A stretch of DNA of 64,000 bases from Proteinivorax hydrogeniformans (GTDB taxonomy: Bacteria; Bacillota; Proteinivoracia; Proteinivoracales; Proteinivoracaceae): NCBI RefSeq assembly GCF_040515995.1, contig NZ_CP159485.1, forward strand, positions 2,294,001-2,358,000. Reading direction: 5' to 3'. Made by a program: the position numbers and the translations under genes. A model generated the notes under the pieces. It was not told the origin of the DNA and did not search any database. It worked only from the letters and a program-made list of their open reading frames with translations. This document shows positions 15,714 to 59,816 of the stretch, piece after piece; within the stretch, counting starts at the first letter, position 1, and the number at the start of each line of letters is the position of its first letter.

Positions 15714-16214
15714 ATGTCAAAATCTAAAAGTAAGCACTACTCTAAAGAGTTTATTGAGTCCGTATTAAAAAGACTTGAGCCCCCTTCAAATGACACCGTT
15801 ACTGCTATTGCAGCAGAGCTGGGCATTCCCAAAACAACCATTTATACATGGGTGAAAAGAAACAATAAAACTCTATCATCTCGCAAACCTCAAAATAGGT
15901 GGAACTCAGAAGATAAATTCCAAATAGTATTAGAAACAGCAGCTTTAAGTGAAGCTGAGCTAGCCGATTACTGCCGACGTAAAGGTATATACCTTGAAGA
16001 TATAAAGCGTTGGAAAGAGCAATGTTTAAAGGCAAACCAAGGTGAAACACAGGACTACCAAAAGACTAAAAGTGAGTTAAAGGAAGAAAAGGAAAAAGCA
16101 AAAGAATTAAAAAAGCAGCTTAGACAAAAAGAGAAGGCACTGGCAGAAACGGCTGCATTACTAGTATTAAGAAAAAAAGCAGACGCGATTTGGGGGGACC
16201 CCGAGGAAGACTGA
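15714..16214 (+). CDS. IS3-type transposase OrfA (copy 2)
   Basis: Identical 166-residue protein to the OrfA at 11397: two helix-turn-helix regions and a charged coiled coil, ending in the -1 frame overlap with OrfB at a run of six G. Confidence 0.9.
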   Translation: MSKSKSKHYSKEFIESVLKRLEPPSNDTVTAIAAELGIPKTTIYTWVKRNNKTLSSRKPQNRWNSEDKFQIVLETAALSEAELADYCRRKGIYLEDIKRWKEQCLKANQGETQDYQKTKSELKEEKEKAKELKKQLRQKEKALAETAALLVLRKKADAIWGDPEED

Positions 16215-17275
16215 TCAGTAGCTCAGATCGCGTAAAAGCAGTAGAACTGATCGATGAAGCAAGAATAAATGGTGCAAGGTTAGCCCCTGCATGTGAAGTA
16301 TTAAGTATCAGCGTGCGTACCTATCAAAGATGGACTAAGGAAAAAGGGAAGATCAAAGAAGATAAAAGACCTTCAGCTAAACGCCCCACTCCTAAAAACA
16401 AGCTAACAGATGAAGAACGCCAAGAAATAATAAAAACAGCAAATAATCCTAAGTATGTCGACTTACCTCCATCACAAATAGTTCCTAAGCTGGCAGACGA
16501 AGGCAAATATTTGGCATCTGAATCAACAATTTACAGGGTTTTAAAAGAAGAAAAAATGGATGCTCACCGAGGAAGGGCCAAAAAACCCACAAAAAGGGAG
16601 CCTCCTACTCATGTAGCTACTTCCCCTAATAAAATATGGACTTGGGATATAACATGGCTAAACTCTGCTGTTAAAGGTAGTTTCTATAAGTTATACCTTA
16701 TAATAGATATGTTTAGCAGATTAATTGTAGCCTATGAAGTATGGGAGTCAGAGAAAGCAGAATATGCTGAAAGACTTATTAAAAAAGCAACATTGTCTCA
16801 AAAGATTTCAGGTCGACCTTTAGTACTACACTCCGATAATGGCAGCCCAATGAAAGCAGCAACATTTCAGGCCACACTTGAAAAACTAGGTATTCAAAGC
16901 TCTTTTTCCCGTCCAAGAGTTAGTAATGACAACCCTTACTCCGAATCGCTCTTTAAGACCATGAAGTATCGCCCAGCATACCCTTATAAAGGTTTTAAAA
17001 GCATAGAGGAAGCAAGAAATTGGGTTAAAGAATTTGTTAGATGGTATAACTATGAACACTTACATAGTGGCTTAAAATTTGTTACACCTTACCAAAGACA
17101 CTATGGAATTGATGTTAATATAGTAGAAAAAAGAATCAGGATCTATGAGCATGCAAGGAAAAAGCACCCAGAGAGGTGGTCTAAAAATATCAGAGATTGG
17201 TCATTACCCGAATATGTTTCTCTAAACCCTATAAAAGACATACAGTTTAAAAATACTATAGATCATGTAGATTAG
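16190..17275 (+). CDS. IS3-type transposase OrfB (copy 2)
   Basis: Identical 361-residue DDE integrase to the one at 11873, with WDIT, HSDNG and NPYSESLF positions intact. Both copies look competent, so either could mobilise the other. Confidence 0.92.
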   Translation: MGGPRGRLISSSDRVKAVELIDEARINGARLAPACEVLSISVRTYQRWTKEKGKIKEDKRPSAKRPTPKNKLTDEERQEIIKTANNPKYVDLPPSQIVPKLADEGKYLASESTIYRVLKEEKMDAHRGRAKKPTKREPPTHVATSPNKIWTWDITWLNSAVKGSFYKLYLIIDMFSRLIVAYEVWESEKAEYAERLIKKATLSQKISGRPLVLHSDNGSPMKAATFQATLEKLGIQSSFSRPRVSNDNPYSESLFKTMKYRPAYPYKGFKSIEEARNWVKEFVRWYNYEHLHSGLKFVTPYQRHYGIDVNIVEKRIRIYEHARKKHPERWSKNIRDWSLPEYVSLNPIKDIQFKNTIDHVD

Positions 17276-19721: not shown

Positions 19722-20063
19722 TTAACAAGCTATAACTTCTTTTATTAAAAACTCTTTGCCGCTAAGAAGTTCTACTTTTTCACTTTCACACTGCGGGCAC
19801 CTTTTTTGTTGTTCAGAGAAACTAAATATATTTTCACAGCTTTTACACAATACATTTGCTGGTATTACTTCAATTTTTAGTTTTGTCTCTTCTAAGGATG
19901 TTCCATCGACTGCTGCAGGGTAACAAGCCTCTACATATCTTGGGATCATCGAAGATAGCTCGCCTATTTGAAGGACTAAGGTATCTACTTTTTTTAGATT
20001 ATTTTTTTTTGCAAAGTCTTCCACAGTTTCCACAACTTTTATTACTACTCCTAACTCATGCAA
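19722..20063 (-). CDS. HypA-like metallochaperone (locus A)
   Basis: A 113-residue HypA/HybF-family protein. Two CXXC pairs form the zinc site (CKSC...CPQC, about residues 73-92). I place the start at TTG 20063, which gives MHELG, the Ni-binding N-terminus of HypA (the free amine, H2 and E3). AGAGGTG sits 6 bases upstream. The GTG at 20072 is part of that ribosome site and would bury the His. No hydrogenase or urease genes are in the window; it is last of three genes after the Fe-S flavoprotein and the DUF5692-like protein. The locus B copy is also 113 residues. Confidence 0.85.
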   Translation of the reverse strand: MHELGVVIKVVETVEDFAKKNNLKKVDTLVLQIGELSSMIPRYVEACYPAAVDGTSLEETKLKIEVIPANVLCKSCENIFSFSEQQKRCPQCESEKVELLSGKEFLIKEVIAC

Positions 20064-20103: not shown

Positions 20104-21015
20104 TTACGCTACATTTGTTGGCCCTTGATATTGGCTTGTGCCGGTCCAAACTTCTCCTTTTGCTGGGTTGCGGCGAAGCTTTACAATCCTATATATTTGC
20201 CAAGCAGCAAGAATTACATGTAAGCCAAAAGATGTTAAAGCTAAGATCCAGTTAGCTGTAGGATTATAGCTAACACTCACATTGAAGGTGCTGCCTACAG
20301 CAAAAAATGCTGGGAATGTCATTATCCATAACATCCAAAAAGATAAGGTATGGGCACGGTTTTGCATCCAAGTTCCCTTAGCCCAAAACAGTGCAGGAAT
20401 TATTGGTGCTATATTTAACGCCACCCCTGAATAAAAAGCGTTACCTGGGGCACATGAGTATACGTAGGATATATTCCATACAGCATAAGCGATAATATAA
20501 AACATACTTTGATCAGGCCAGACCATATCCCTACGCTTGTCGGTGGTACCATATATACCAACCCAACCACAAATAAGTAACATACTTAATATACCGGCTG
20601 CAGCGTTGAAGTAATTCCAACCACCAGAAATATAATACATGCCGTCTATCATACCTTCAAAACCTCTGATACCAACTTGCAGCTCTCTAATTGCAGCTTC
20701 GATAATATTTATAGCTAAAATTGCTGGAACCAAAAATAGATACCACTTGTGCTTTTTATGATAGTCGGTATATCTTATTACCATATAAATCAAACTACCT
20801 GCTAAAGCGGAATAAACTTTAACCCAATGAAACCATGATAAAAGTTCACTATCTGACTGAAGCCAAACAAAAGTTAGCAAAACTGGCATTATCATAAAGA
20901 TAGTGATGCTTCCCCACTTACTGGCACGAACTAATTCATTTAAACCAATGAGAGCTGCTAAAACTACAAACCACATTATTACGTTCTGCAAGGGTATTGC
21001 CTCAAAAAAGAACAT
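20104..21015 (-). CDS. DUF5692-like multi-helix membrane protein (locus A)
   Basis: A 303-residue protein with about eight membrane helices. It starts MFFFEAIPLQNVIMWFVVLA and has NELVR after helix 1, WFHWVKVYSALAG near residue 80, NIIEAAIREL near residue 104, and VWNISYVYSCAPGNAFYSG near residue 180. A paralogue with the same landmarks is at 52889 (NEITR; WFGWVKVISALAG; NIAEAVYKEF; LWNFAYVYNCISTRSLYAG). I place it in DUF5692 from memory. Function is unknown; a membrane partner for the neighbouring Fe-S flavoprotein is my inference. GGAGG precedes the ATG. Confidence 0.75.
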   Translation of the reverse strand: MFFFEAIPLQNVIMWFVVLAALIGLNELVRASKWGSITIFMIMPVLLTFVWLQSDSELLSWFHWVKVYSALAGSLIYMVIRYTDYHKKHKWYLFLVPAILAINIIEAAIRELQVGIRGFEGMIDGMYYISGGWNYFNAAAGILSMLLICGWVGIYGTTDKRRDMVWPDQSMFYIIAYAVWNISYVYSCAPGNAFYSGVALNIAPIIPALFWAKGTWMQNRAHTLSFWMLWIMTFPAFFAVGSTFNVSVSYNPTANWILALTSFGLHVILAAWQIYRIVKLRRNPAKGEVWTGTSQYQGPTNVA

Positions 21016-21107: not shown

Positions 21108-23798
21108 TTACTCTCTTTTAAACATGCCTCCAAAGAAGTTTTTCATTTCTTTGCCCTTAATTCTAACTTTTCGTTTTATAGCGTATTTCATAACTTTAGG
21201 CTTAACATTCTCAAACTCAACAGTATTTTCATCATATTTTCTTACTAATGAAATAGCGTCAAACTTACATTTAGTTACACAGGATCCACATCCTACACAC
21301 ATAAACTCATCTACATGTGTTGCACCACAATCTAGACAACGCTCTGTTTCTTTTATCACTTGCTCCTCTGTGAAGGTACTGCGTAAGTCTTTAAAGGTTT
21401 CTTTAGCTTTATCGCCATCGACATGTAATCCTCTTTGTCTAGGTAAGCGGTCATAACCAGCAAGGTCAAGGTTTTCTTTGTCTAATGCTTTATATCCTTT
21501 ATTTACACGCCCTAGCGTTAAGCTTTGACCAGGATGGACATAGCGATGAATTGAAATAGCACCTTCTTTTCCTTGCGCTATGGCGTCTATGGCAAACTTA
21601 GGACCTGTTAGAGAGTCGCCACCAGCAAAAACATCTGGCTCGTCAGTTTGATAAGTAGTGCCGTCAGCTTTTATTGTGTTGTTAGGGTTTAGCTTTATTT
21701 TGCTGTCTTCGATTAAGCCGCCCCAATCCATCTGTTGCCCCACTGATATCAAGACATTATCTGTCTTAACAATCTTAGTCTCGCTTTCATCGAATTTAGG
21801 GCTAAAGTTACCTTTCTCATCAAAAACAGAAATACATTTTTTAAACTCTACACCAGTTACACGGCCGTTTTCGGTAATTATCTTTTTTGGGCCCCACGAG
21901 TTGTTTATTCCGATACTTTCAGATAAGGCCTCATCAATTTCTTCTTCTAATGCTGGCATATCTTTTCTTGTTTCTAGGCAATACATATTTACTTCAGATG
22001 CACCAATTCTAGTAGCTGTTCTTGCAACATCTATGGCGACGTTACCGCCCCCTATTACCACAGCTGAACCTTTCATCTGTTTTTCTTCACCTAAGTTTAC
22101 TTTTCGTAAAAATTCAACTCCGGTCTTTACACCTTCAGCGCCTTCGCCTTCTAATCCTAACTTTCTACCTGCCTTTGCGCCTATAGCCATATAAAAAGCT
22201 TTAAACCCTTGTGCCCTAAGCTCTTTTATGGTAGTATCTTTTCCAATCTCGACACCTGTTTTGAATTCAACTCCTAAGTCTCGTAAAATATCTATCTCGG
22301 CATTAACCACATCTCTGTCCAGTCTATATGAGGGGATCCCTAAAGTTAACATACCCCCTAGTATCTTTTCTTTCTCATATACAGTGACAGGGTAGCCTTG
22401 AACAGCTAAATAATAAGCACATGAAAGCCCTGCAGGACCGGCACCAATAACTGCTATTTGCTCTGTGTGCTCTCCTTTTTTCTTTGGTACAAAGCGGTGC
22501 TCTGATTTTAACTCCTGCTCTGCTATAAACTTTTTGATATCATCGATAGCCACTGGATCATCAATATCCGACCTTGTACATTCTGACTCACATTTTCTCG
22601 GACAAACTCGACCACATACAGCTGGGAATGGATTTTCTTCTTTTATAAGTTCTAAGGCTTTTTTGTACTCCCCTTGTGCGGCAAGCTTTATATATCCTTG
22701 AATACCTATATGTGCTGGACACTCGGTTTTACAAGGGCTAGTTCCACTTTCAACAACAAGTTCCTTATTAGTTCGATAGTCTGGGTCCCATTTATCTTCT
22801 CCCCACTCGGTATCATAGGGTAACGGACGCTCTTTTTGCTCTATAGGAGTCTTTGTGCAAATTTTTTGACCAAGTTTTAGCGCATTGGTTGGACAATTGT
22901 CGATACATTCTCCACAGGCAACACACTTTTCTTCGTCCACTTGTGATACATAATTTGAGCGGACCATGTCAGGGTTTTTGAACATCCCAGCTATCCTCAT
23001 TGCAAAACAGGAGCAACCACAACAGTTGCATATAGCGTGTGTTTTTCCCGGTCCATCTAAGTTAGGAATACTGTGCATTAACCCATTTTCTTCAGCTTTC
23101 TTAATGATTTCAAAGGCCTCTTCACGGGTTATTTCCCGCCCTCTACCTGTTCGTATGTAATACTCTGCTGCATGACCTAGCTGTATACACATTTCTTCCT
23201 TTAAATGACCACATCCTTCTCCCATAGCTTCTCTTGAAGTCCTACAAGAACAGTCAGAAACTGAAAAAACGTCATTTTCATTAAGATATTTTGATACTTC
23301 TTCATAAGATGCCCTTCTGGTTTCTCCTTGGATTGATTCCTCGATAGGTATAACACGCATAGGTCCTACACCTACAGGAAAAATCCCTGCAGCTTGTGGT
23401 CCTTTTACCTTGCCATACGCATCAAAAGCTTCGGCAATCTGGGGATATTTTTTTACATTTTCTCTGTGATTAGCCATCATTTCCATATGGCCAGGCACCC
23501 AAATATCGTGCCAGTATTTATCAACACCATCCATTTCGTTAACAAATGCCGCACCGCAATCCGCTAACTGAAGTAAAAGCTCTTCTGTTTTTTCTTCAGA
23601 CTTACCACACTTGGCAGCGATTTCTTTAACGCTTAAAGGTTCACGAAATGCTAGACAAAGCCCCACTTCTGCCATCTCTTCTGTAACGACTGGCTCTAAA
23701 ATTTTGTACTCCGGACGGTCTGGAGTTATTGCGTCTTTTTTGCCACGTTTAGTTCTGCTAATTTTGTTCGCAAAATCTAATACCCTCTCTTTTACCAT
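21108..23798 (-). CDS. Large Fe-S flavoprotein, GltD-like fusion (locus A)
   Basis: An 896-residue multidomain oxidoreductase. Residues 40-100 look like a winged helix. A Cys-rich module follows: C183, C185, C196, C204 (SDCSCRTS...CGHLKEEMC) and a CNCCGCSC cluster at 257-264. A ferredoxin site is at 292-302 (CVACGECIDNCP). Then comes a GltD-type half: N-terminal Cys at 395-407 (CGRVCPRKCESEC), FAD motif GAGPAGLSCAYYL near 452, and NAD(P) motif GGGNVAIDVARTA near 595. A last ferredoxin site, CVGCGSCVTKCKF, is near the C-terminus. It should pass electrons between NAD(P)H, FAD and several clusters; the final acceptor is unknown. A close paralogue is at 54456. Confidence 0.88.
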   Translation of the reverse strand: MVKERVLDFANKISRTKRGKKDAITPDRPEYKILEPVVTEEMAEVGLCLAFREPLSVKEIAAKCGKSEEKTEELLLQLADCGAAFVNEMDGVDKYWHDIWVPGHMEMMANHRENVKKYPQIAEAFDAYGKVKGPQAAGIFPVGVGPMRVIPIEESIQGETRRASYEEVSKYLNENDVFSVSDCSCRTSREAMGEGCGHLKEEMCIQLGHAAEYYIRTGRGREITREEAFEIIKKAEENGLMHSIPNLDGPGKTHAICNCCGCSCFAMRIAGMFKNPDMVRSNYVSQVDEEKCVACGECIDNCPTNALKLGQKICTKTPIEQKERPLPYDTEWGEDKWDPDYRTNKELVVESGTSPCKTECPAHIGIQGYIKLAAQGEYKKALELIKEENPFPAVCGRVCPRKCESECTRSDIDDPVAIDDIKKFIAEQELKSEHRFVPKKKGEHTEQIAVIGAGPAGLSCAYYLAVQGYPVTVYEKEKILGGMLTLGIPSYRLDRDVVNAEIDILRDLGVEFKTGVEIGKDTTIKELRAQGFKAFYMAIGAKAGRKLGLEGEGAEGVKTGVEFLRKVNLGEEKQMKGSAVVIGGGNVAIDVARTATRIGASEVNMYCLETRKDMPALEEEIDEALSESIGINNSWGPKKIITENGRVTGVEFKKCISVFDEKGNFSPKFDESETKIVKTDNVLISVGQQMDWGGLIEDSKIKLNPNNTIKADGTTYQTDEPDVFAGGDSLTGPKFAIDAIAQGKEGAISIHRYVHPGQSLTLGRVNKGYKALDKENLDLAGYDRLPRQRGLHVDGDKAKETFKDLRSTFTEEQVIKETERCLDCGATHVDEFMCVGCGSCVTKCKFDAISLVRKYDENTVEFENVKPKVMKYAIKRKVRIKGKEMKNFFGGMFKRE

Positions 23799-23882: not shown

Positions 23883-23917
23883 AAAAAAAGAAGAACCCTT
23901 TTATACAAAGGTTCTCC
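23883..23917 (-). terminator. Terminator between FAD gene and Fe-S flavoprotein
   Basis: AGAACC(C)TTT pairs with AAAGGTTCT; on the minus strand TCTTTTTTT follows. It separates the transposase-like/FAD pair from the Fe-S flavoprotein operon. Confidence 0.65.
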
Positions 23918-24048
23918 CCACTTTATATTTCATCTTTGGTTTACAGTTTTGATTTCACTTCAGTTCTATTATGGCAGGCATTATTGATAATTTATGAACA
24001 CAAGAAGTGTAAAGTTAACTTTAAAGTAAAATTTTGTAATTTAATTTT

Positions 24049-25305
24049 CTAAAAATATTTACTAATTAAGAAGTTTGAGTACTTAATGCAGTTTTCCATG
24101 GAGACAGTACTCATTATTTCACCTGCTAAAAACACATTGTGTTTCCCTTGCATAGACTCTAGCTTTTCATAAAATCCTTTTTGCAAGACCTCAGATTCAA
24201 CGTAAGGGCCTTGCTTTTGCCAATTTTTATACTGATATAACCGCGGGTTTTTAACTCCTAACTTTACAAGATCTGCTTTTAAAATATTCATAGATTCTTC
24301 TTTAGAGTGATTAGGGTTATTATAAGCATAAACCGTTAACAACTCTTCATCTATAGTGGAGTCCCAACGAGAGTTCCATATAACCAAGTGTCCTTTTTTT
24401 GTTGTTTTTAAGTTTTCTAACACGCACCCACAGCCATTTGGAAGATTGTCACCTAAAAAAGCATACACAGTATAGTTATTGTATTTTATACTTTTTAAAA
24501 AATCCACCATTTCGTTGTCCTGCTCATATAAATGAGTAAATTGATTAAGGGGAGCAGTTATGATGGCTTGATCAAACTCTAATTTTTCATACTCTGTATA
24601 AAGGACCAAAGTCTGTGCATTAGTTGGCTCTACTTGAGAAACTTTCTGCCCCAATCTTAGGTCTTTAACTCTTTGGCTCAATCTATCGACTATAGAAGAA
24701 ACACCATGCTTCCAGGTAAAAAGTTCCGGAACCTCCAAAAACGCCATTACAGTTTGGAAGTTTAGCAGTCTTAATACATAAACAGCAGGTACTTCGTTGA
24801 TATCACCCAATCCATAGCTAGAAAAATGATGAGTATATATTCGTTTTAAAACCGTTAAATTATGAAAATCACACCACTTTGCAAAAGGCATAGCTAGCCG
24901 CTTTTCTATAAACTTGATATTTACATTCCGAAGGGATTTATAGTCTTCTAAAACGTCAGGCAAGCGATATATTTCCTCAAGAAAATCATCAAGTTTGTTT
25001 TGAGGTATCTGCAAAATTTTATTGCCTTCTGCATCATAACTGACTCGGGACAAACTCGGACCATCAGGCTTTATATTCAGCTCTTTCATCAAACTTTGCA
25101 AGTTCTTTTGAACAGGAAGACCAAAAAGAGCACCAAGCTCATAAGACCTCCCCTTATACCAAATGGTATTAAGCTTGCCTCCTAACCTATCTTCCTTTTC
25201 AAAAACAGTAACATTTTTATAACCTTTTTTTTGTAGCTGTGCTGCAATAAAGAGTCCTGAAAATCCGCCTCCAACGACAGCTATTTTAGAATCTAAGCTT
25301 TTCAC
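24049..25305 (-). CDS. FAD-dependent oxidoreductase (locus A)
   Basis: A 418-residue flavoprotein of the amine oxidase/protoporphyrinogen oxidase type. The N-terminal FAD motif is AVVGGGFSGLFIAAQL, then EKEDRLGGKLNTI; the C-terminal flavin motif is VFLAGEIMSTVSMENCIKYS. Mid-region HHFSSYGLGDINEVPAVYVL (about residues 157-176) closely matches HLSSFGFGSIYEVQAYYAF in the paralogue at 58626. The ATG overlaps the stop of the transposase-like gene (ATGA), so translation is coupled. The substrate is unknown. Confidence 0.85.
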   Translation of the reverse strand: MKSLDSKIAVVGGGFSGLFIAAQLQKKGYKNVTVFEKEDRLGGKLNTIWYKGRSYELGALFGLPVQKNLQSLMKELNIKPDGPSLSRVSYDAEGNKILQIPQNKLDDFLEEIYRLPDVLEDYKSLRNVNIKFIEKRLAMPFAKWCDFHNLTVLKRIYTHHFSSYGLGDINEVPAVYVLRLLNFQTVMAFLEVPELFTWKHGVSSIVDRLSQRVKDLRLGQKVSQVEPTNAQTLVLYTEYEKLEFDQAIITAPLNQFTHLYEQDNEMVDFLKSIKYNNYTVYAFLGDNLPNGCGCVLENLKTTKKGHLVIWNSRWDSTIDEELLTVYAYNNPNHSKEESMNILKADLVKLGVKNPRLYQYKNWQKQGPYVESEVLQKGFYEKLESMQGKHNVFLAGEIMSTVSMENCIKYSNFLISKYF

Positions 25306-26363
25306 TTGAAATCAACTCTCTTCTTTTGATTAAGTAACGCCAAAATCCAAAGGGGTAGTGTGCTAAAGTCAGCACCATTTTCTTCAGCCTTTTGCAGTAC
25401 AACTTCTGCCGGTGTTTTTCCTTTTTTTGCACCACTTGTTATGGGCCGTAAAAAGTTATAGCTTCTTAGAAATTTATGAAATTCCCTCTCAACCTTTGCA
25501 AAAGAGTTAATATTGTTTTCTGCTTGAACCTTATTATAAAACTCTTTTACCAAAAACTCGTTAAACTCATTTATGGATTCTAGCGCAGTACTTTCTTCAG
25601 ATTCTACAAAATGGTGATTAACCTTTAGTTCCTCAATAATCTCTTTTTGCTTATTACCTTTTACAAAATAAGGCAAAAAAACTTTTGTCTTTTTAGTAAA
25701 AAGATATTCTATATCTAAGTTAAATGTCTTAAGGAGGTACATTATTTTATGTTCAAAAAAGTACCAAACGTCTATGTCTTGTTTTTTGTTGTAAAGCTTT
25801 ACAACTCCTAGTTTAGAGTAAACGTCATAAAGACTATACTGATATATCTTTCCAATCCCATCAAACTTGCCTATAAAATCAATCCGTTGAATGAGACAAT
25901 GTCCAGGGTATTTAATATCCTCAGCGGAAGCGAATATCGGAGCTGTACGCTTTTTTCGCTTTTCTTTAGGATTAAGTGCCTTGTCTTTAGAATACTTAAT
26001 TCTCTCTTGTTTTTTTGAAAGACTATGTCTTTTTAAAACATTATAAATACCAGACTCACCTATATCAAAACCTTCGGACTTCAATTCATAGTAAATCCTT
26101 TTAGGGCCGTCTGCAGGATACCTTTCTATGTAAGTTAGTATCTCATTTTCTATAGTTTTGCTGACTTTGTTTGGCATTTTAGGTTTTTGAGGCTCTTTGC
26201 TTTGTAGGCCCGTCACACCACTTTTTTGATATGCTTTAAACCAATTGTAAAAAGTTGTTCTTGATATACCATATAATTCACAAGTTAAGGAAACGTTTTT
26301 ATGCTTCAAAGCATGTTTTATAATGATATGTTTACTATGTGCGTTAAAGCCCTCAAACTTCAT
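25302..26363 (-). CDS. Degenerate transposase-like DNA-binding protein (locus A)
   Basis: A 353-residue protein with an N-terminal helix-turn-helix (VSLTCELYGISRTTFYNWFK, about 24-43), an HTH_21-like segment (YPADGPKRIYYELKSEGF, about 84-101) and an integrase-like core. The first catalytic Asp may persist (QRIDFIGKF), but the second site lacks the usual DNG and reads TKKTKVFLPYF. It ends with an LPLW motif shared with the paralogue at 57636. No flanking inverted repeats typical of an IS are seen. It overlaps the FAD gene by 4 bases. I infer a domesticated DNA-binding protein, not an active transposase. Confidence 0.75.
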   Translation of the reverse strand: MKFEGFNAHSKHIIIKHALKHKNVSLTCELYGISRTTFYNWFKAYQKSGVTGLQSKEPQKPKMPNKVSKTIENEILTYIERYPADGPKRIYYELKSEGFDIGESGIYNVLKRHSLSKKQERIKYSKDKALNPKEKRKKRTAPIFASAEDIKYPGHCLIQRIDFIGKFDGIGKIYQYSLYDVYSKLGVVKLYNKKQDIDVWYFFEHKIMYLLKTFNLDIEYLFTKKTKVFLPYFVKGNKQKEIIEELKVNHHFVESEESTALESINEFNEFLVKEFYNKVQAENNINSFAKVEREFHKFLRSYNFLRPITSGAKKGKTPAEVVLQKAEENGADFSTLPLWILALLNQKKRVDFK

Positions 26364-49604: not shown

Positions 49605-50354
49605 TTAACCGATTACGACCGTTTTTTGTCCCTTAACCTCGCCTATAGCGGAAGTGATTCCATAAACAGATTCAATCGTTTCCGGTGTAACGACGGACTC
49701 ATCCCCATATTTATACGCCTTGCCGTCTTTTAAAAAAAGAAATCTATCACAATAACGTAGTGCAAGATTGATATCATGTGAAACAATGATAGTGCTGATA
49801 TTTCGTTCTTTTGTCACATGTCGCACCAACGCCATCATTTCATACTGATTTTTTGGGTCAAGATTACTGGTCGGCTCATCTAAAAGCAACAGACGGGGTT
49901 GCTGGACGAGAGCACGGGCCAGCATTACCTTTTGCAACTCTCCTCCGGAAAGTTCGTCTATATACCTTAGCTTAAATTCAGACAAACCCATTTTCTCAAG
50001 CATTTCATCACAAATATCTATATCCTCCTGAGATACAGCCCACTTTATGTATGGCTTCCTTCCCAGCAGTACGGAGTCAAACACGGTCATTTGGTGTATT
50101 TCATTTTTTTGTGCCACATATGAAATGTGTCGGGCAGTTTCTAATCTACTCATTTTAAGGATATCATGCTTGTCGATTAGAACCCTTCCCTTTTTCGGTG
50201 CTCGAATCTTATTTAAGCAAGTAACGAGCGTACTTTTTCCTGCGCCGTTTTTGCCTAAAATTCCTACGAACTCACCGGCCACAACGTTGAAACTGACGTC
50301 TTTTAAAATATTACTTTTGCCGTAAGAAAAAGAAATATCTTTAATTTCTATCAA
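49605..50354 (-). CDS. FecE-type ABC transporter ATPase
   Basis: A 249-residue ATPase of the iron/cobalamin importer class. Walker A is GKNGAGKST (35-43), signature LSGGELQKVMLARAL, Walker B LLLLDEPTSNLD, and switch His in VSHDINLAL. Its start overlaps the permease stop by 4 bases. Last gene of a binding protein-permease-ATPase operon. Confidence 0.92.
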   Translation of the reverse strand: MIEIKDISFSYGKSNILKDVSFNVVAGEFVGILGKNGAGKSTLVTCLNKIRAPKKGRVLIDKHDILKMSRLETARHISYVAQKNEIHQMTVFDSVLLGRKPYIKWAVSQEDIDICDEMLEKMGLSEFKLRYIDELSGGELQKVMLARALVQQPRLLLLDEPTSNLDPKNQYEMMALVRHVTKERNISTIIVSHDINLALRYCDRFLFLKDGKAYKYGDESVVTPETIESVYGITSAIGEVKGQKTVVIG

Positions 50355-51442
50355 TCAACCCACCTCTTCTTCCTTTGCTTTATGATTAAATATAAGAACA
50401 GAGGTCCGCCTAAAAAAGAGGTGATGGCACCTATGGGCAAAATGGCGGGAGCCTTTATCATTCGTGATGCGATATCCGCTAAAAGCATAATCACACCACC
50501 CATGAGCGCCGAACAAGGTATCAAAAAACGGTAGTCGCTACCTACGAACCTGCGTACAATATGAGGTGCAATCAACCCTATGAAGCTAATCGTCCCGACA
50601 AAGGCAATTGCCGTTGCAGAAATAAGAGTAGCTATGGACATACTGACAAGAATCAATCTATCGACATTAACCCCAAGACTTTTGGCTGTATTGGCACCGC
50701 TTTCCATGGCATTATAGTTCCAGCGATTAAGGAAAAAATAAAAGAAAGCAAGCACACTGAGTATGAATATCAGAGATATCTCCTTCCATCCAGCTCTCCC
50801 AAGATTGCCAAAGGTCCAGTATACAATGGAAGCAACCATATCATCATCGCTGAAATATTGAATTAACGTCGTTGCCCCAGTAAACATCGAACTCAACGCC
50901 ACACCGGCTAAGATCATCACAGCTGGTGACACCCCACTTACGCGAGATAACATCAAGATAACCAAGGTAGTAGAAATACCACCTAAAAACGCCCAAGTGG
51001 CTACCGTGTATGGATTGGTAACAGAGATACTTGCGCTGGAGGCATTACTAATTTGGGCACCTGCCTGAAAATATACGATTGCGATAGACGCCCCGAAAGA
51101 TGCACCCTGAGATACCCCTAGCGTCGAGGCAGAAGCTAGCGGGTTGCGCAGTACACTTTGCATCACGCACCCCGCCATAGCAAGGGCTATTCCAACACTA
51201 ACTGCCGTTGCAACCCGCGGCATACGCACGTTCCAGACAATTGTTTGGCTTGTCGCTTCATTGCTAAAGCCAAACAGAGCTCGCAGCACCTCACTAATGG
51301 GAATACCTGATGACCCCACCGAAATAGACACTATGGCAGCGGCTAGCAGGATTATGACAAGTGACACGAGAAACAACCATTTTTTGGCGATGTAGCGGTA
51401 ATATTCGTTGTGTTTACCTATAGAGCATTTGAGTGTTCTCAT
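50351..51442 (-). CDS. FecCD-type ABC transporter permease
   Basis: A 363-residue permease with about nine to ten helices. The BtuC/FecD landmarks are NVRMPRVATAVSVGIALAMA (about 68-87), RNPLASASTLGVSQGASFGA (about 94-113) and FIGLIAPHIVRRFVGSDYRF near residue 290. It starts 4 bases after the binding-protein stop codon. GC content in this operon seems somewhat higher than in flanking genes, which may hint at a separate origin. Confidence 0.92.
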   Translation of the reverse strand: MRTLKCSIGKHNEYYRYIAKKWLFLVSLVIILLAAAIVSISVGSSGIPISEVLRALFGFSNEATSQTIVWNVRMPRVATAVSVGIALAMAGCVMQSVLRNPLASASTLGVSQGASFGASIAIVYFQAGAQISNASSASISVTNPYTVATWAFLGGISTTLVILMLSRVSGVSPAVMILAGVALSSMFTGATTLIQYFSDDDMVASIVYWTFGNLGRAGWKEISLIFILSVLAFFYFFLNRWNYNAMESGANTAKSLGVNVDRLILVSMSIATLISATAIAFVGTISFIGLIAPHIVRRFVGSDYRFLIPCSALMGGVIMLLADIASRMIKAPAILPIGAITSFLGGPLFLYLIIKQRKKRWVD

Positions 51443-51446
51443 AACA

Positions 51447-52583
51447 TCACTCGCCTATTGTAATCTGCCCATAGTAGAGGCCGCCTTCATTCATAAGTTC
51501 ATACGTATTCTCACCAAGGAATGTCGTTAATATCTCTTTAGCTTTATCGTCGATGTCAACATCGGAAAACTGCTCGGGAAACAAAACAGTGCCGGCATAG
51601 TATGCATTTATAAATGCGTAGGTAAAATTTGTTCCGGCGTTATTAAATGCTGGCATTGTATAAACTTTCCCTTCCTGCACTGCCTGCAGTGAATCGAAAT
51701 AGCTTGGGTTTTGCGCATATTCATCGTTTACCAAGTCCATATTACCTGGATCAAGGAATATTACATCAGGATCCCAGATTAGTATTTTTTCTAAGTCTAC
51801 CTCATAAAAACTTTCGATGCTTTTATCCTCAGCTACATTAATTGCGTTAATGGCGTCAAATATACCAAATTCGGAGTATGTCCCAGAAAAGCCCCGTCTG
51901 CCGTTCCATGTAACCGCACCAGCATACGCCCGCTGTTTATCACTATCAGAAACATCAGATGTACGTTTATGTAAGTCAGCAAGCATGGAGTCCACATAGT
52001 CAAGAATCATTTCCGCTCGTTTTTCTGCGCCGATCACATCGCCAAATACCCTAGTAGCTTTATAAAAAGATTCCGGCGCTAAACCGGTGCCGTGCCGCAC
52101 CGAAACTACAGGAATACCAGTTTGTGCCTGCAATTCGTCTGCTGCTTCCAAATCAAACCCAGCAACTATAACGTCGGGCGCAGCCATGATAATCTCTTCA
52201 GGGTAACCGTTGTTTTGGCCACTGCCTCCACCTTGACCAACGAAGGGCAACTCCTTTAAGGTATCGTGGTGCACAGGATTATAGTCTCTGCGAATATTTA
52301 CGCCTTGTGCTATATATTCTTCCGCCCCTACAACCATATCCATTGCATCAAGGTATGCCGCTAAACGAGGCGCCCCTGAGCCTAAACAGATGATTGACTC
52401 TACACTCACAGGGATTTTTACCTCCCTGCCTGTTACATCTGTAATTATTCTAGTCTCAGATGTGGATGTTTTCTCTATGGACTCGCTGCTCCCTTCAGTG
52501 GGCTCGCTGCTGCATCCGACAATCGATATAAAAAGTGAAAAGGTTAATAGTAGTGTCAACGCTTTTTTCATACTGTTACTCAT
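51447..52583 (-). CDS. Fec-type substrate-binding lipoprotein
   Basis: About 378 residues: lipoprotein signal LLTFSLFISIVGC followed by a two-lobed periplasmic-binding domain (ITDVTGREVKIPVSVESIIC; APDVIVAGFDLEAADELQAQ). I chose ATG 52583 with GGAGGAAGAG upstream. Typical ligands of this class are ferric siderophores, haem or cobalamin; some relatives bind molybdate or tungstate. No cobalamin riboswitch or Fur-like box was recognised upstream, so the ligand is open. It neighbours redox locus B. Confidence 0.88.
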   Translation of the reverse strand: MSNSMKKALTLLLTFSLFISIVGCSSEPTEGSSESIEKTSTSETRIITDVTGREVKIPVSVESIICLGSGAPRLAAYLDAMDMVVGAEEYIAQGVNIRRDYNPVHHDTLKELPFVGQGGGSGQNNGYPEEIIMAAPDVIVAGFDLEAADELQAQTGIPVVSVRHGTGLAPESFYKATRVFGDVIGAEKRAEMILDYVDSMLADLHKRTSDVSDSDKQRAYAGAVTWNGRRGFSGTYSEFGIFDAINAINVAEDKSIESFYEVDLEKILIWDPDVIFLDPGNMDLVNDEYAQNPSYFDSLQAVQEGKVYTMPAFNNAGTNFTYAFINAYYAGTVLFPEQFSDVDIDDKAKEILTTFLGENTYELMNEGGLYYGQITIGE

Positions 52584-52773
52584 TTCTCTTCCTCCTTCAT
52601 TTTCAATGTTACGAAACCTCTTTATACCACTTCGAAACAAAAACTACCTGCTTATACCTAAGTTCAACGTCAACTTTAAATTTCTTCTTTAGTATTTATG
52701 GAGAACTTAAACACTCACTTCTTTATTCTAACATTTTTCTAACCCTTTCCCAATAAATTTATTTAACATTAAA

Positions 52774-52888: not shown

Positions 52889-53818
52889 CTACAGGTTATT
52901 TTCCGCTAGATTTTTCTTGTATGCGTTTGTATGTGTAAAAATCTCTTCTTTTAGTGGGTTCTTTTTGTTCTTGCCCATGGTATAAATCATATAAACAAAA
53001 ACACCCAAGTTAAAAATAAAAGAAAATACACTAAGCCCGATTAACAAGTTTTCTTGGTATGTTGGAAAGATTTGAAAGTATGAGGCCTGTTGATAATCTA
53101 CAGCCAAAGCAAACATGGCAAAAAACGCTAATATTTGTGCTCTATGTTGTAGCCACGCACCTCTTTTAAATACATATTCTGCTATTATGGCTGCGGTTAG
53201 TATAGCAAATCCCGCATACAAAGATCTTGTGGAAATGCAGTTGTAAACATATGCAAAGTTCCATAAGGTATAACCTATAATATACATCCATGTCATATCA
53301 GGCCAAATCATATCTTTAGTTTTATCTTTTGATACCCTTATGCCTGCAAATCCTGTTAGTGTGAGAATACATAAAATCCCCGCAAGCCCGTTAAAAATAT
53401 TCCACGGACCACCTAAAACAAGGATGCCAGCTGGGTCAACGGTGGGAGTATTATAAGTCATAAATACCTCAAATTCTTTATACACTGCTTCTGCAATATT
53501 TAGCGATAGTATTGCAACGGGAAATAACGCTGCAAACTTTCTACCTCCAAACTTGGTGAATCGAATCAACATAAAACCATACACACCTGCTAATGCAGAT
53601 ATAACTTTAACCCATCCAAACCATGTTTGGCCTGATGGTGATCCTAAGATATCCATATAGACACCAATGGCTAATAAAACTGGAAGTACACAAAATACAA
53701 TAATTGATACCTTTATTGATCTTCTTGTGATTTCATTCACGAACACAACCGCAGAAATTAACAAGATGAGACCCATAACGCTTTCAAAAGTTAAACCTTC
53801 ATAAAAGAGCATTTTCAT
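52889..53818 (-). CDS. DUF5692-like multi-helix membrane protein (locus B)
   Basis: A 309-residue paralogue of the protein at 20104, with about eight helices and matching landmarks: NEITRRSIKVSIIVF, WFGWVKVISALAG, NIAEAVYKEF, GGPWNIFNGLAGILCILTLT and LWNFAYVYNC. Its ATG overlaps the stop of a 49-residue ORF (ATGA). Last gene of the locus B minus-strand operon, whereas in locus A it precedes the HypA-like gene. Function unknown. Confidence 0.75.
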   Translation of the reverse strand: MKMLFYEGLTFESVMGLILLISAVVFVNEITRRSIKVSIIVFCVLPVLLAIGVYMDILGSPSGQTWFGWVKVISALAGVYGFMLIRFTKFGGRKFAALFPVAILSLNIAEAVYKEFEVFMTYNTPTVDPAGILVLGGPWNIFNGLAGILCILTLTGFAGIRVSKDKTKDMIWPDMTWMYIIGYTLWNFAYVYNCISTRSLYAGFAILTAAIIAEYVFKRGAWLQHRAQILAFFAMFALAVDYQQASYFQIFPTYQENLLIGLSVFSFIFNLGVFVYMIYTMGKNKKNPLKEEIFTHTNAYKKNLAENNL

Positions 53819-54053: not shown

Positions 54054-54395
54054 TTAGTAGCCGGCAATCTCTTTAATTCTAAATTCTTTTCCTGAAATCA
54101 AAGTAAAGTCTTCACCATCGCAATTTGGGCATACTTTCCTGTTATCAATTATGTTGTAAACTTCTTTGCATAGATTGCATTTACCGTTAGCTGGTAAAAT
54201 AATAATCTCTAGTTTTGTCTGTTCGTAAGGTGTTTCAGTTACAGCTGCAGGATAGCAATCTTCAATATACCTTGGTATTGCTTGGGATAACTGTCCAATT
54301 TCCAAAACTATCTTTTCCACTTTTTCAACATTATTTTCTTTTGCAAAATTATCTACGATTTTTATAACTTCGTATACAATTCCCAATTCATGCAT
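54054..54395 (-). CDS. HypA-like metallochaperone (locus B)
   Basis: A 113-residue HypA/HybF homologue. Starting at ATG 54395 gives MHELG, the Ni-binding N-terminus, with GAGGG 8 bases upstream; an upstream in-frame codon at 54410 would bury it. Zinc motifs are CNLC and CPNC. It follows the Fe-S flavoprotein gene by 60 bases. It is the same length as the locus A copy. No hydrogenase genes are nearby. Confidence 0.85.
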   Translation of the reverse strand: MHELGIVYEVIKIVDNFAKENNVEKVEKIVLEIGQLSQAIPRYIEDCYPAAVTETPYEQTKLEIIILPANGKCNLCKEVYNIIDNRKVCPNCDGEDFTLISGKEFRIKEIAGY

Positions 54396-54455: not shown

Positions 54456-57230
54456 CTATCTGGTTTCCGTAAAAGGGTTTATTTTATTTAAAGCAATTTT
54501 AGCTTTTCTAGAGACTGCTTTTTTGATTACTTTTTTAGGTAAATCATCAATTTCGTAGCCAATAACATCGTGAACCCTTTCTAAGTCGATTGCATCAAAC
54601 TTACATCTTAAGGTACAGGCACCACAACCAACACATAAGTATTCGTCCACTTTGGTTGCGCCACAGCCTAAACATCTAGCTGTCTCCTTTTCTATTTCCT
54701 CTTCTGTGAAAACTCCTCTCAAATCTTTAAAAGTAGTTTTAGAAACCTCTCCATCTATATGCTTGATTCTTTGACGCTCAGTTCCGTCGTAATCTATTAA
54801 ATCCGCTAGATTTTCCTTATCAAGCGCTATATATGAGTGGGTATCCCTTCCAAACACTAAAGATTGGCCATTTTGAACAAATCTGTGGATAGAAACAGCA
54901 GCTTCCTTTCCAGCAGCTATGGCATCAATTGCAAGCCTTGGTCCACTAACAACGTCTCCACCTGAGAAAATATCACTCTTTGAAGACTGTAATGTTATAG
55001 GATCAACTTTTATAGTGTTTCTATTAGTTAAAGTAACATCTTCACCTTCTAATAAATTGCCATAATCAAAGTTTTGCCCTACTGACATTAAAACATAGTC
55101 ACAAGGAACTACCTTCTTATCAGATTCGTCAAACTTAGGGTTAAAGTTTCCGTTTTGATCAAATGTCGATATACAGCGTTTAAACTCAACTGCCTTTACC
55201 TTGCCATTTTCCGTTATGATTTTGGAGGGGCCCCATGAATTGTTAATTCCTACTTGTTCTTGTAAAGCTTCCTCCACTTCCTCTTTATGAGCAGGCATAT
55301 TTTCCCTGTCTTCAAGACAGTATATGTCTGTTTGAAGGACATTTTTTAGCCTAGCTGAGCTCCTAGCAACATCAATAGCAACATTGCCACCACCAATTAC
55401 TACTACCTTACCTTGGACGTTGGTTTCTTGACCTAAGTTAAGTGTTTTAAGGAACTTAACCCCACTAAGTACTTCCTTTGATTCTTCTCCCTCTAAGCCC
55501 AGTTTTCTACCTGACTGAGCTCCAATAGCTACATAAAAAGCATTAAAGCCTTGATTTCTAAGTTCCTCAATAGTAATATCTTTTCCTACTTCTACTCCCG
55601 TTTTAAATTTCACGCCCATTTTTCTAATCACGTCAATCTCTGCTTCTATAACGTCTTTTTCTAACCTGTATGAAGGAATACCTAAACTTAACATACCACC
55701 TAGCTTTTCCTCTTTTTCAAAAACTGTGATGTCGTATCCATCAATAGCAAGGTCATAAGCACATGTAAGTCCTGATGGTCCAGAACCGATAATTGCAATC
55801 TTCTTGTCCCCATAGTTATGTCTTTTTGTAGGGATGTATCTAGTCTCCGTATCTAAATCCTTCTGAGCAATAAACTTTTTGATATCATCAACAGCTACTG
55901 CTTCATCTAAATCACCACGGGTACAGTCTTCCTCACAAAGTCTTGGACATATACGTCCACATACTGCTGGAAGTGGATTATGTTTCTTTATAAGCTCAAG
56001 AGCCTCTGTATATTTCCCTTGTGATGCTAACTTGATATAGCCTTGAACTGGAATATGAGCAGGACAGCTTGTAATACAAGGGGCAGTACCAGAATCTAAA
56101 GTGTTTTTCCGATTTTCTCTGTAGTCGGTGTTCCATTTGTCTTCTAACCATTCAGTGTCTCTTGGAGTAACTTTTGTAATGGTTTCGTCAATTGGATTTT
56201 CTGAGCATAGCTTTTGACCAAGCCTTAATGCGTTAGTTGGACATACATCAATACACTCCCCGCAAGCCACGCAGTTTGATTCGTCCACTACAGATTTATA
56301 ATTAGACCTTACAATATCATTGTTTAAGTACTCATTTGCAAGTCTCATGGCAAAACATCCACATCCACAGCAGTTACAAATAGCATGGGTGTGCCCCAGT
56401 CCATCTAGGTTGGGTATAGAGTGCATTAATCCATTATCTTCTGCCCTTTTAATAATTTCAAAGGCTTCTTCCCTTGTTATTTCACGACCCCGGCCAGTTT
56501 TTATATAATATTCTGCGGCGTGGTCTAGCTGGATACACATTTCTTCTTTTAAGTGTCCACAACCTTCTCCCATAGCCTCTCTAGATGTTCTACATGAACA
56601 GTCTGATACCGTAAAAACGCTAGCTTCATTTAAATACTTAGATAGTTCTTCATAAGATGCTCTTCTTGTATTGGCATCAATAGATCTTTCAATAGGTATT
56701 ACTCTCATAGGGCCTCCACCAATAGGCATAATTCCTGCCGCCATTGGCCCCCTTTTACTGCCGAAATAATAAAAAGCTTCAGCAACTTCAGGGTGTTTTT
56801 CAACGATTTCCTTGTTATTGTTAATCGTTTCAAGATGGCCGGGAACAAAAATATCCTGCCAATACATATCTACCCCATCAACAGTATTAACAAAGGCAAC
56901 ACCAGCCCAAGCAATATGATCTAGTGCAGTTTTGACTTTTTCATAAGGTTCTCCCGCTGCTTTTGCAACATCGTCAGCGCTAAGCTTTTTCCTAAATTCT
57001 AAGTGCATTGCGATTTTAGCCTGATAAGAATCTAAAAGCGGTTCAAGAGCATAATACTCTGGTCCAAATGGTATAGCTTCTCTGCTTGTTCCAGCTTTGG
57101 TTCTGCCTATTTTATTGGCAAGATCAAGAATCTCTTGCCTATACGGACGGCCATCAACATCTGCCCATGTTAAAGCAAAATTAAAACGCTTAGACTTATT
57201 AAAGTTTGTTTTTTCATTTTTTTTAGCCAT
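54456..57230 (-). CDS. Large Fe-S flavoprotein, GltD-like fusion (locus B)
   Basis: A 924-residue paralogue of the protein at 21108 with the same order: winged-helix-like N-terminus, SDCSCRTSREAMGEGCGH, CNCCGCGCFAMR, CVACGECIDVCPTNALRLGQ, GltD-type CGRICPRLCEEDC, FAD motif GSGPSGLTCAYDLA, NAD(P) motif GGGNVAIDVARSSAR and C-terminal CVGCGACTLRCKFDAI. Near-identical blocks show common ancestry; an N-terminal extension of about 25 residues differs. It should be a multi-cluster NAD(P)H oxidoreductase. It is first of a minus-strand operon and divergent from the transposase-like gene. Confidence 0.88.
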   Translation of the reverse strand: MAKKNEKTNFNKSKRFNFALTWADVDGRPYRQEILDLANKIGRTKAGTSREAIPFGPEYYALEPLLDSYQAKIAMHLEFRKKLSADDVAKAAGEPYEKVKTALDHIAWAGVAFVNTVDGVDMYWQDIFVPGHLETINNNKEIVEKHPEVAEAFYYFGSKRGPMAAGIMPIGGGPMRVIPIERSIDANTRRASYEELSKYLNEASVFTVSDCSCRTSREAMGEGCGHLKEEMCIQLDHAAEYYIKTGRGREITREEAFEIIKRAEDNGLMHSIPNLDGLGHTHAICNCCGCGCFAMRLANEYLNNDIVRSNYKSVVDESNCVACGECIDVCPTNALRLGQKLCSENPIDETITKVTPRDTEWLEDKWNTDYRENRKNTLDSGTAPCITSCPAHIPVQGYIKLASQGKYTEALELIKKHNPLPAVCGRICPRLCEEDCTRGDLDEAVAVDDIKKFIAQKDLDTETRYIPTKRHNYGDKKIAIIGSGPSGLTCAYDLAIDGYDITVFEKEEKLGGMLSLGIPSYRLEKDVIEAEIDVIRKMGVKFKTGVEVGKDITIEELRNQGFNAFYVAIGAQSGRKLGLEGEESKEVLSGVKFLKTLNLGQETNVQGKVVVIGGGNVAIDVARSSARLKNVLQTDIYCLEDRENMPAHKEEVEEALQEQVGINNSWGPSKIITENGKVKAVEFKRCISTFDQNGNFNPKFDESDKKVVPCDYVLMSVGQNFDYGNLLEGEDVTLTNRNTIKVDPITLQSSKSDIFSGGDVVSGPRLAIDAIAAGKEAAVSIHRFVQNGQSLVFGRDTHSYIALDKENLADLIDYDGTERQRIKHIDGEVSKTTFKDLRGVFTEEEIEKETARCLGCGATKVDEYLCVGCGACTLRCKFDAIDLERVHDVIGYEIDDLPKKVIKKAVSRKAKIALNKINPFTETR

Positions 57231-57574: not shown

Positions 57575-57635
57575 AACATTAAATGCTTTGCGATTATACA
57601 TTTTTAGTACGTTTTAGGTGGGGGCCGGGGGCGCT

Positions 57636-58613
57636 ATGGATAAACAGTTAAAGTTTGAAATAATTATCGAAGGGCAAAAATATGGTGTCACTGCAACCTG
57701 TAAAAAGCATAACATCTCAAGGACACTTTATTATCGTTGGTTAAAACGATATAAAACCCATGGCATTGAAGGCTTAGGTAAGATAGAAAAGAGCTTCACT
57801 CCGGTTAATAAAACTAAACCAGAAATAGTTTCTACTATTTTAAATCTAATAAAAAAACACCCAAAGTTTGGGCCTAGGGAAATCAAATATCTTTTAGAAG
57901 AGATAGGCTATGATATAAGCGAATCTGCTGTGTATAATGTTATGAATAGAAATAATCTAACCAAAAGAGCTAAAAGGCTCAAGTTTGCAAATAAGTCAGA
58001 GAAAAAGGCAAACAGGAATTACCCCGACTTTGGAAGGATAAAAAGTGGTGAATGTTGGTTGTGTTGGACAACATTCTGTGGAGAGTTTGAAGCTTTAGGC
58101 TCAATATATGCTTACACTATATTTGATTACAAAAGTAAAATTGCTTGTACTAGGCTATACAATCAGCTGTCTATGAAAAATTTTGAAGACATTCTAACAG
58201 GCTTGGCTATCCCTGTTGCTCAAAGCTTGAGTGCAGAGGGTAAACATTTGTGCTTTTTTGATAATGACATCACCGTAAAACAGAAAGGTTCTCTTTTGTC
58301 TTACACAACTGTTCAACATTTCGGGTATGATATAAATGTTCATATGTTAAAAGAAAGCGATGATTTAACTGAAGCTAACGAATTAAGAAAAGAATATACT
58401 CATCGCTGCTTGTCTTTTCTCATGCCTCTTATTTATAAAGGAGTATCGTTTAATAAACTTAAAATTGATCTGCAAAGTTATATCAGAGATTACAACATTA
58501 AAAACAAATTATCGTATAACGGTGAGCTTTATTCACCAGTTGAATATCATGCTAAGTCAACAAATGCTGAAGTGATTTTGCCCCTATGGGCTTATATAGA
58601 AAGACAATATTAA
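57636..58613 (+). CDS. Degenerate transposase-like DNA-binding protein (locus B)
   Basis: A 325-residue paralogue of the protein at 25302: helix-turn-helix (GVTATCKKHNISRTLYYRWL), HTH_21-like HPKFGPREIKYLLEEIGYDI and an integrase-like core. The first catalytic position reads CWLCWTTFCGEF with no Asp, while FFDNDITV lies near the second. So the lost residue differs from locus A. It ends in the same LPLW motif. The ATG at 57636 follows an unusually G-rich stretch; GTG 57618 is also open. The FAD gene follows after 12 bases. I infer a DNA-binding role without transposition. Confidence 0.72.
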   Translation: MDKQLKFEIIIEGQKYGVTATCKKHNISRTLYYRWLKRYKTHGIEGLGKIEKSFTPVNKTKPEIVSTILNLIKKHPKFGPREIKYLLEEIGYDISESAVYNVMNRNNLTKRAKRLKFANKSEKKANRNYPDFGRIKSGECWLCWTTFCGEFEALGSIYAYTIFDYKSKIACTRLYNQLSMKNFEDILTGLAIPVAQSLSAEGKHLCFFDNDITVKQKGSLLSYTTVQHFGYDINVHMLKESDDLTEANELRKEYTHRCLSFLMPLIYKGVSFNKLKIDLQSYIRDYNIKNKLSYNGELYSPVEYHAKSTNAEVILPLWAYIERQY

Positions 58614-58625
58614 GAGGTGATAAAG

Positions 58626-59816
58626 ATGCGCTATGCCATAATAGGTGCAGGGTTTAGCGGCATGTTAGCAGCTTATCTTTTAGAAAAAAAAGGCGTAGAT
58701 GTCACTGTATATGAAAAGCAAGAAAATATAGGTGGCCACTGCAGAACAATTGTAAACAAGTATATGCATATTGAACTTGCTACCGTATTTTGCTTTTCTC
58801 AACATATTAAAGAGCTTTTAATAGAGCTGGATGTTGGATATACTGAGCGTTTTACATACAGAAACTTTTTAGATGAGAATTTTTCCAAAGTTGAACATAT
58901 AGCTAGAGATAGAGTAGAGGGGCTGATGGGGGAACTAGTTAAATTAAATGATATATTAAAACCTTACCGTCCTTATTTAAATGATATTAATTATGGGTAT
59001 ATCCCTGAAGAGTTAATGGTATCTTTGCATGAATTTCTTAAAAAGAACAATTTAAATAATATTAGCGAAGTAATTGCTCCCCACCTCTCTTCGTTTGGTT
59101 TTGGAAGTATCTACGAGGTTCAAGCATACTATGCTTTTCATATCTTTGATATGGATACTATTTATTCATTTATTCAGAGCAATAAACTTCTATTTGTGAA
59201 TAAGGGAATGTCTGAGGTAATACATAAGCTGAGTCAGAATATATCAGATATTCGCTATTCCATCGAAGTAATAAATATCGAAAGATTAGATGACAAAGTT
59301 AAGGTTGAATCGGAATATGGCTCTGATTTATATGATAAAGTTCTTATCACAACTAAGTTGCCTAATGATGTGATAAAAGATGATTTATACAACCAGTTGA
59401 TGAATAAGATTGATACAAACCCATATATCACCTGTGCTTATGAGGTAGATAATAGAAATATCGTCACAACATATTATAAAGCCAATTTAGGGAAAAAAGG
59501 AAAAGTACAGTTTTTCCATACCTTTAATCATAATAACAAAAACGTATTGGTTGCTTATGCCTATGGTCATGTAAACAAAGAGCTTGTTAACAGTATTACC
59601 AATGATATTCAAAAGTCAGGTATACAGGTGAAGCACTTAATAACAGCTAAGCAATGGTATATATTCCCTCACTTAAAAGAGAAAAACTTAACTCAGAGCT
59701 TTTATAAGGACATCTTAGACAGACAAAAAAATAGCAATATATGCCTAATCGGCTCCATAGTCTCAAAACCGTCAATTTCAAATTTATATGCTTCTATTAA
59801 GCAGTTTATAGGTTGA
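58626..59816 (+). CDS. FAD-dependent oxidoreductase (locus B)
   Basis: A 396-residue flavoprotein, paralogue of 24049. FAD motif AIIGAGFSGMLAAYLLEKKG, then EKQENIGGHCRTI. The mid-motif HLSSFGFGSIYEVQAYYAF matches locus A. The C-terminal flavin motif is weaker (CLIGSIVSKPSISNLYASIK), lacking the usual GE. I chose ATG 58626 with GAGGTG upstream; GTG 58617 lies in that site. It is co-transcribed with the transposase-like gene. Substrate unknown. Confidence 0.82.
   Translation: MRYAIIGAGFSGMLAAYLLEKKGVDVTVYEKQENIGGHCRTIVNKYMHIELATVFCFSQHIKELLIELDVGYTERFTYRNFLDENFSKVEHIARDRVEGLMGELVKLNDILKPYRPYLNDINYGYIPEELMVSLHEFLKKNNLNNISEVIAPHLSSFGFGSIYEVQAYYAFHIFDMDTIYSFIQSNKLLFVNKGMSEVIHKLSQNISDIRYSIEVINIERLDDKVKVESEYGSDLYDKVLITTKLPNDVIKDDLYNQLMNKIDTNPYITCAYEVDNRNIVTTYYKANLGKKGKVQFFHTFNHNNKNVLVAYAYGHVNKELVNSITNDIQKSGIQVKHLITAKQWYIFPHLKEKNLTQSFYKDILDRQKNSNICLIGSIVSKPSISNLYASIKQFIG

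Follow-up and report, generated by a model that had tools for sequence, protein, structure and literature searches.

HypA-like proteins of Proteinivorax hydrogeniformans as candidate metallochaperones of neighbouring IsrA-type oxidoreductases

IsrA was described by Kronen et al. (2023, PMC10134865) as a proposed bacterial isoprene reductase, and the same authors proposed that HypA and HypB metallate it, with nickel perhaps placed at a six-cysteine site, 'cluster V'. In Acetobacterium wieringae ISORED-2 the isr operon comprises IsrA, HypA1, HypB, a ferredoxin and HypA2, and the sections of that article available to us report HypA, HypB and DUF5692 at 0.73, 0.56 and 0.40, respectively, in the neighbourhoods of 988 clade 9 IsrA homologues, and place A. 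woodii homologues near an oleate hydratase. The pairing of HypA with IsrA is thus not new, as it has already been published there. Neither 'linole' nor 'isomerase' occurs in the text of PMC10134865, and the neighbours named in its available sections do not include a polyunsaturated fatty acid isomerase (PAI) or the helix–turn–helix (HTH) partner described below. Two further systems bear on the comparison, in each case as given in an extract of the source: strain Y, which reduces dienes and not mono-enes (PMC9765523), and the PAI of P. acnes, which makes trans-10,cis-12 conjugated linoleate (PMC13365329).

Two HypA-like genes lie on the minus strand of the window, by which we mean the whole 64,000-nucleotide stretch of P. 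hydrogeniformans DNA analysed: copy A at 19722..20063 and copy B at 54054..54395. The first-pass annotation had held that both frames become 113 residues long and begin MHELG when read from the TTG at 20063 and the ATG at 54395, with which coordinates and translations agree, and that the apparent GTG start of copy A falls in the ribosome site, as it does: GTG 20072 is part of AGAGGTG, a good ribosome site for TTG 20063. For copy B, the Shine-Dalgarno sequence alone cannot settle the start, because the longer start at ATG 54410 has a weak AGGA of its own; conservation settles it. A start codon stands before HE in 71 of the 72 HypA ORFs adjacent to IsrA in the named genomes (43 TTG, 21 ATG, 6 GTG and 1 CTG), and 67 of these 71 ORFs are exactly 113 aa long, while the single exception among the 72 (L185) begins MHE and has only 80 aa. 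Start codons at MHE throughout the relatives, unlike what an ordinary internal leucine would give, argue that the MHE start is right, and judged by this conservation it is the correct one for both genes.

Both proteins belong to the Pfam HypA family PF01155, with 109.3 bits for copy A and 108.6 for copy B against a gathering score of 28.9, and both fall narrowly short of the NCBI hydrogenase-HypA equivalog TIGR00100 (87.0 and 80.6 bits against a cut-off of 88.1). The predicted nickel-binding ends appear intact in both copies, as had been claimed, MHE and two CxxC pairs being present and conserved. M1, H2, E3 and the four zinc-site cysteines are invariant across 46 aligned HypA rows, which consist of the two window copies, E. 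coli HypA and 43 HypAs from named loci, these last being those among 68 references whose first start already gave 113 aa.

At both window loci the genes for IsrA, DUF5692 and HypA are neighbours, with an oxidoreductase of about 900 aa encoded upstream of each hypA. In unit A, all on the minus strand, hypA is accompanied by a DUF5692 membrane protein (20104..21015; 303 aa; PF18948, 331.5 bits; modelled with about 8 long helices), an IsrA-type FAD/NAD(P)/Fe-S oxidoreductase (21108..23798; 896 aa; Pyr_redox_2, Fer4_20 and Fer4), a PAI homologue (24049..25305; 418 aa) and an IS481-transposase-like HTH protein (25302..26363; HTH_28/29/32, with NF033577 below its cut-off), the gene for which overlaps that for PAI. 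A hairpin scan of the region placed a terminator-like hairpin at 23888..23919 on the minus strand, between PAI-A and IsrA-A; it is insignificant by number, since five such hairpins were found in the region against 4.3 expected, and promoter and terminator scans gave results close to chance level. Unit B contains, on the minus strand, a DUF5692 protein (52889..53818; 309 aa; PF18948, 346.6 bits) and an IsrA-type oxidoreductase (54456..57230; 924 aa; 61% identical to A) and, on the plus strand, an IS481-like HTH protein (57618..58613) and a more divergent PAI-like protein (58617..59816; 399 aa), so that the genes for PAI-B and IsrA-B are divergent. No HypB or ferredoxin gene lies between the unit genes at either window locus. 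Elsewhere in the window, a 1,562-bp stretch occurs twice on the plus strand (11397-12958 and 15714-17275) at 100% identity; by eye its two ORFs resemble those of transposases, and it is probably a recently active insertion sequence.

Beside unit B, 248 bp from DUF5692-B, lies a FecBCD-type importer on the minus strand (49605..52640; binding protein, permease and ATPase, matching Peripla_BP_2, FecCD and ABC_tran), which may import a metal chelate. A FecCD permease is inside the flanks of 6 of 80 named IsrA loci (the best 80 of 272 relatives found). In L052 HypB is similarly accompanied by ABC-importer-like genes, and several named loci combine FecCD permeases with an FmdE-like protein. Two further genes occur near hypA, in L053 (5786-6923) and in named loci: that for a SAM methyltransferase in 11 loci, 10 of which have PAI, and that for an ECF-transporter S component in six, all with PAI.

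The same genome has a third IsrA at a locus denoted C (L050, 4231-9712); its companions there are HypB, a diverged DUF5692-like protein and a TetR gene, the best match of which is a Bacillus FadR model, below cut-off. This HypB is the single one of the genome (1844314-1844787; TIGR00073, 243 bits against a cut-off of 121). There is no hypA at locus C, where a few genes resembling, by eye, an ECF sigma system lie between IsrA and hypB; the sister genome G004 retains hypA (L051, 7794-8144) at the place of these sigma-like genes. By this comparison hypA has been lost from locus C, and HypB is encoded 470 kb away from the window units; with HypA and HypB spread over three loci, the two would therefore act in trans. 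In both genomes of the genus, the HypB of the third locus has an Old-yellow-enzyme-type reductase as its neighbour (L050, 3111-4103; L051, 9616-10599).

Among the 80 named loci, which are biased to close relatives because they are the best 80 of the 272 IsrA relatives found, HypA is inside the flanks of 72, HypB of 71 and DUF5692 of 37, one of these last at only 24 bits. When counting was restricted to the 67 of these best 80 loci whose flanks extend 4 kb or more upstream and 2 kb or more downstream, HypA was present in 62, HypB in 60, DUF5692 in 32 and PAI in 20; some of the eight named loci lacking HypA, again among the best 80, are at contig ends. Similar linkage was seen by coordinates in a sample of 299 genomes of the phylum, where full-length IsrA occurs in seven genomes as 12 copies, 10 of which lie no more than about 1.1 kb from a HypA match. 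HypA scoring at roughly 44 bits or above, here called strong, was found in 118 of the 299 genomes by lists transcribed by hand from the result tables; 110 of these also match PF00374, and six of the remaining eight have IsrA. In a tree built on only 113 columns, a single branch (SH-aLRT 100) separates the 72 IsrA-linked HypAs from 31 others, which are the top-scoring 30 phylum loci plus E. coli and not a random draw. What is new here is that IsrA-linked HypAs form one clade, and that most sampled genomes with HypA and without a NiFe match (6/8) have IsrA. In Moritella (L166, L189), a genus that makes polyunsaturated fatty acids, IsrA occurs twice at close spacing, with a single HypA and a single HypB.

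Each window oxidoreductase has the architecture of the IsrA type, with about 900 aa, a cysteine-rich N-terminus, Fer4, Fer4_20, an FAD/NAD(P) domain and a C-terminal Fer4. Nine N-terminal cysteines (C183, 185, 196, 204, 257, 259, 260, 262 and 264 in copy A numbering) are invariant in 84 of 84 rows and are a plausible candidate metal site; one IsrA set comprised 57 of the 80 IsrA references and the two window proteins. For residues 1-273, neither a PDB sequence nor a Pfam family above its cut-off was matched. From about residue 350 the fold is GltD/NfnL-like, the best PDB matches of a whole-protein search that mostly covered residues from there on being 9bov (Z 42.3) and 8oh5 (Z 41.0), aligned over some 480 residues. 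In HypB, C95-H96 and C127 are conserved in all 69 rows, among them that of E. coli. For DUF5692, no PDB sequence match was found, nor did the predicted model (mean pLDDT 76.8) return a Foldseek match under 0.001; a GPCR-like assignment was rejected, as Z reached only 8.2, a level that helix bundles of any kind can be expected to give.

PAI-A matches PDB 2b9w over 416 residues (3-418; E 1.3e-54), and PAI-B, 27% identical to PAI-A, matches it distantly (residues 5-384; E 4.2e-20). We take 2b9w to be the P. acnes PAI; a literature search by this code did not confirm the name, the paper reached using 2b9w, in the text available, as an FAD control only. Residues aligned to R88 and F193, presumably positions with a functional role in PAI, are kept in 19 of 19 and 18 of 19 homologues. 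The HTH gene is directly upstream of PAI, usually overlapping it, in all 17 named loci that have both (17 of the best 80). PADLOC gave no match for the HTH protein. That it is an active transposase is doubtful, as is a working DDE triad, D180 being its sole invariant acidic residue (19/19); it is perhaps a domesticated transposase turned regulator.

The first-pass annotation had suggested that HypA, with no NiFe hydrogenase or urease nearby, delivers to another client, and had named a hydrogenase operon without its own hypA elsewhere in the genome as the case that would speak against this. The genome, a single contig of 2,833,627 bases that is 99.88% complete, contains exactly two HypA matches, and neither the [NiFe]-hydrogenase large subunit (PF00374) nor the urease alpha subunit (PF00449) has a match anywhere in the 2.83-Mb sequence or in four order mates, so that no such operon was found and the absence noted locally holds genome-wide. 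It does encode one other nickel-enzyme candidate, the only one found and one that the earlier annotation did not mention, a Ni-type CO dehydrogenase at about 1627482-1629176 (TIGR01702, 697.7 bits). Some sampled genomes have HypA near such a gene by coordinates (e.g. G016, G068), but delivery of nickel from HypA to CO dehydrogenase is very improbable here, given that strong HypA is missing from 51 of 124 genomes with the enzyme, that three of seven IsrA genomes have HypA and no CO dehydrogenase match, and that roughly 0.7 Mb separates this gene from either hypA copy in the source genome (G000). That the hypA genes are remnants of a lost hydrogenase system would suit a genome with no hydrogenase match, yet it is barely credible for two intact copies with IsrA, belonging to a dedicated clade that extends across Bacillota, Spirochaetota, Chloroflexota and Pseudomonadota. 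The suggestion of another client is thereby supported, with an IsrA-type oxidoreductase beside both copies and HypA linked to it in nine-tenths of the closest named loci (72/80), and we regard IsrA as very probably that client. The metal is probably nickel, to judge from the conserved residues; the HypA/HypB pair might instead handle another metal, or assemble an Fe-S site, which the unproven nickel ligands of IsrA and the scores of the window HypAs below the hydrogenase equivalog cut-off would allow, but conservation of MHE, both CxxC pairs and the Cys-His...Cys residues of the HypB G-domain makes this improbable.

The substrate is less securely assigned than the client. With the same machinery, IsrA might act on isoprene, on terpenes or on a different diene, leaving PAI as a neighbour with a job of its own. 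Isoprene induces the IsrA operon of A. wieringae, and its authors suggest terpenes in the sections of PMC10134865 available; moreover, 60 of the 80 named loci (best 80 of 272) show no PAI in their flanks, PAI being the only fatty-acid family scanned for there, and because most IsrA loci are without PAI nearby the substrate is probably not uniform across the family. Against this stands the distribution of PAI, which is rare (6 of 299 phylum genomes) and yet lies beside IsrA in five of those six, with gene order fixed in most loci. These five come from only three families, seven of the eight PAI genes in the sample are within about 2.1 kb of IsrA by coordinates, and the hypergeometric probability of the co-occurrence is 6.5e-9 when kinship is ignored. 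PAI is also within the flanks of 20 of the 80 named loci (best 80 of 272) and flanks IsrA at both window loci. On a FastTree IsrA tree, in which placement of window copy B is uncertain, the PAI label changes 12 times (19.6 for shuffled labels), with at least 9 of these changes falling on well-supported branches, and the PAI–IsrA linkage has therefore been gained or lost repeatedly. On balance a different substrate is possible but unlikely, while a conjugated fatty acid as the IsrA substrate stands at a little under even odds.

The explanation we prefer, to which as a whole we give a probability of roughly 0.6, is that HypA serves IsrA, and that nickel-loaded IsrA hydrogenates a conjugated fatty acid made by PAI. 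Each HypA would be a metallochaperone dedicated to the IsrA-type oxidoreductase of its own unit, working with the single HypB encoded at the third IsrA locus, and the pair would load nickel into a metal site of the invariant cysteines in the IsrA N-terminal domain. Electrons might then pass from NAD(P)H to FAD, through four [4Fe-4S] clusters and on to this site. PAI would move a double bond in linoleate-type fats to give a conjugated diene, of which the IsrA metal site would hydrogenate one bond; in P. hydrogeniformans the diene would most likely be the conjugated fatty acid from the neighbouring PAI-like isomerase, and the DUF5692 protein may handle or sense lipid in the membrane. Such a mechanism fits the reduction of dienes and not mono-enes by strain Y and the oleate hydratase near the A. 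woodii homologues. Against it speak the absence of HypB from both window units and of HypA from locus C, a site with IsrA and HypB, as well as from eight of the 80 named loci; the hairpin separating PAI-A from IsrA-A; and the divergent orientation of PAI-B and IsrA-B together with the distance of PAI-B from 2b9w. Searches of literature other than subscription journals and preprints brought up no published link between IsrA and a fatty-acid isomerase, and the literature searched, as far as its text was available, yielded no report on the metal, substrate or activity of a purified IsrA homologue.

If correct, this would provide the orphan HypAs with a concrete client, add to the clients of HypA and HypB a class that is neither hydrogenase nor urease, and turn the search for the substrate towards lipids, away from the hydrocarbons considered in print. 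It would also name a gene for conjugated-fatty-acid reduction in anaerobes, an activity long known there and, to our knowledge, without a firm gene. More tentatively, HTH, PAI, HypB, IsrA, DUF5692 and HypA may together form a complete anaerobic pathway of polyunsaturated-fatty-acid biohydrogenation, whose conjugated-fatty-acid reductase would be a nickel/iron-sulfur flavoenzyme. Were isomerase and reductase to act in series, fatty-acid biohydrogenation genes could be named in many anaerobes, and a class of enzymes reducing unactivated conjugated double bonds would be added to those that use nickel.

Considering the described systems together, the window units share with the isr operon an IsrA-type protein that is about 900 aa long and carries a cysteine domain at its N-terminus, an adjacent HypA and a genome without NiFe hydrogenase, and differ from it in having DUF5692 and a PAI-like isomerase and in lacking HypB and the operon ferredoxin. 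The clade 9 neighbourhoods show the same company of HypA, HypB and DUF5692, whereas the available text names neither PAI nor HTH as a neighbour. To the P. acnes PAI the likeness is that of a full-length FAD protein that retains the counterparts of R88 and F193; unlike it, the window homologues adjoin a reductase and an IS481-like gene, and their isomerase role is putative. With the HypA of the E. coli [NiFe]-hydrogenase system the window proteins have MHE and two CxxC pairs in common, but they are only 26% identical to it, fall in a separate clade and belong to a genome without a hydrogenase.
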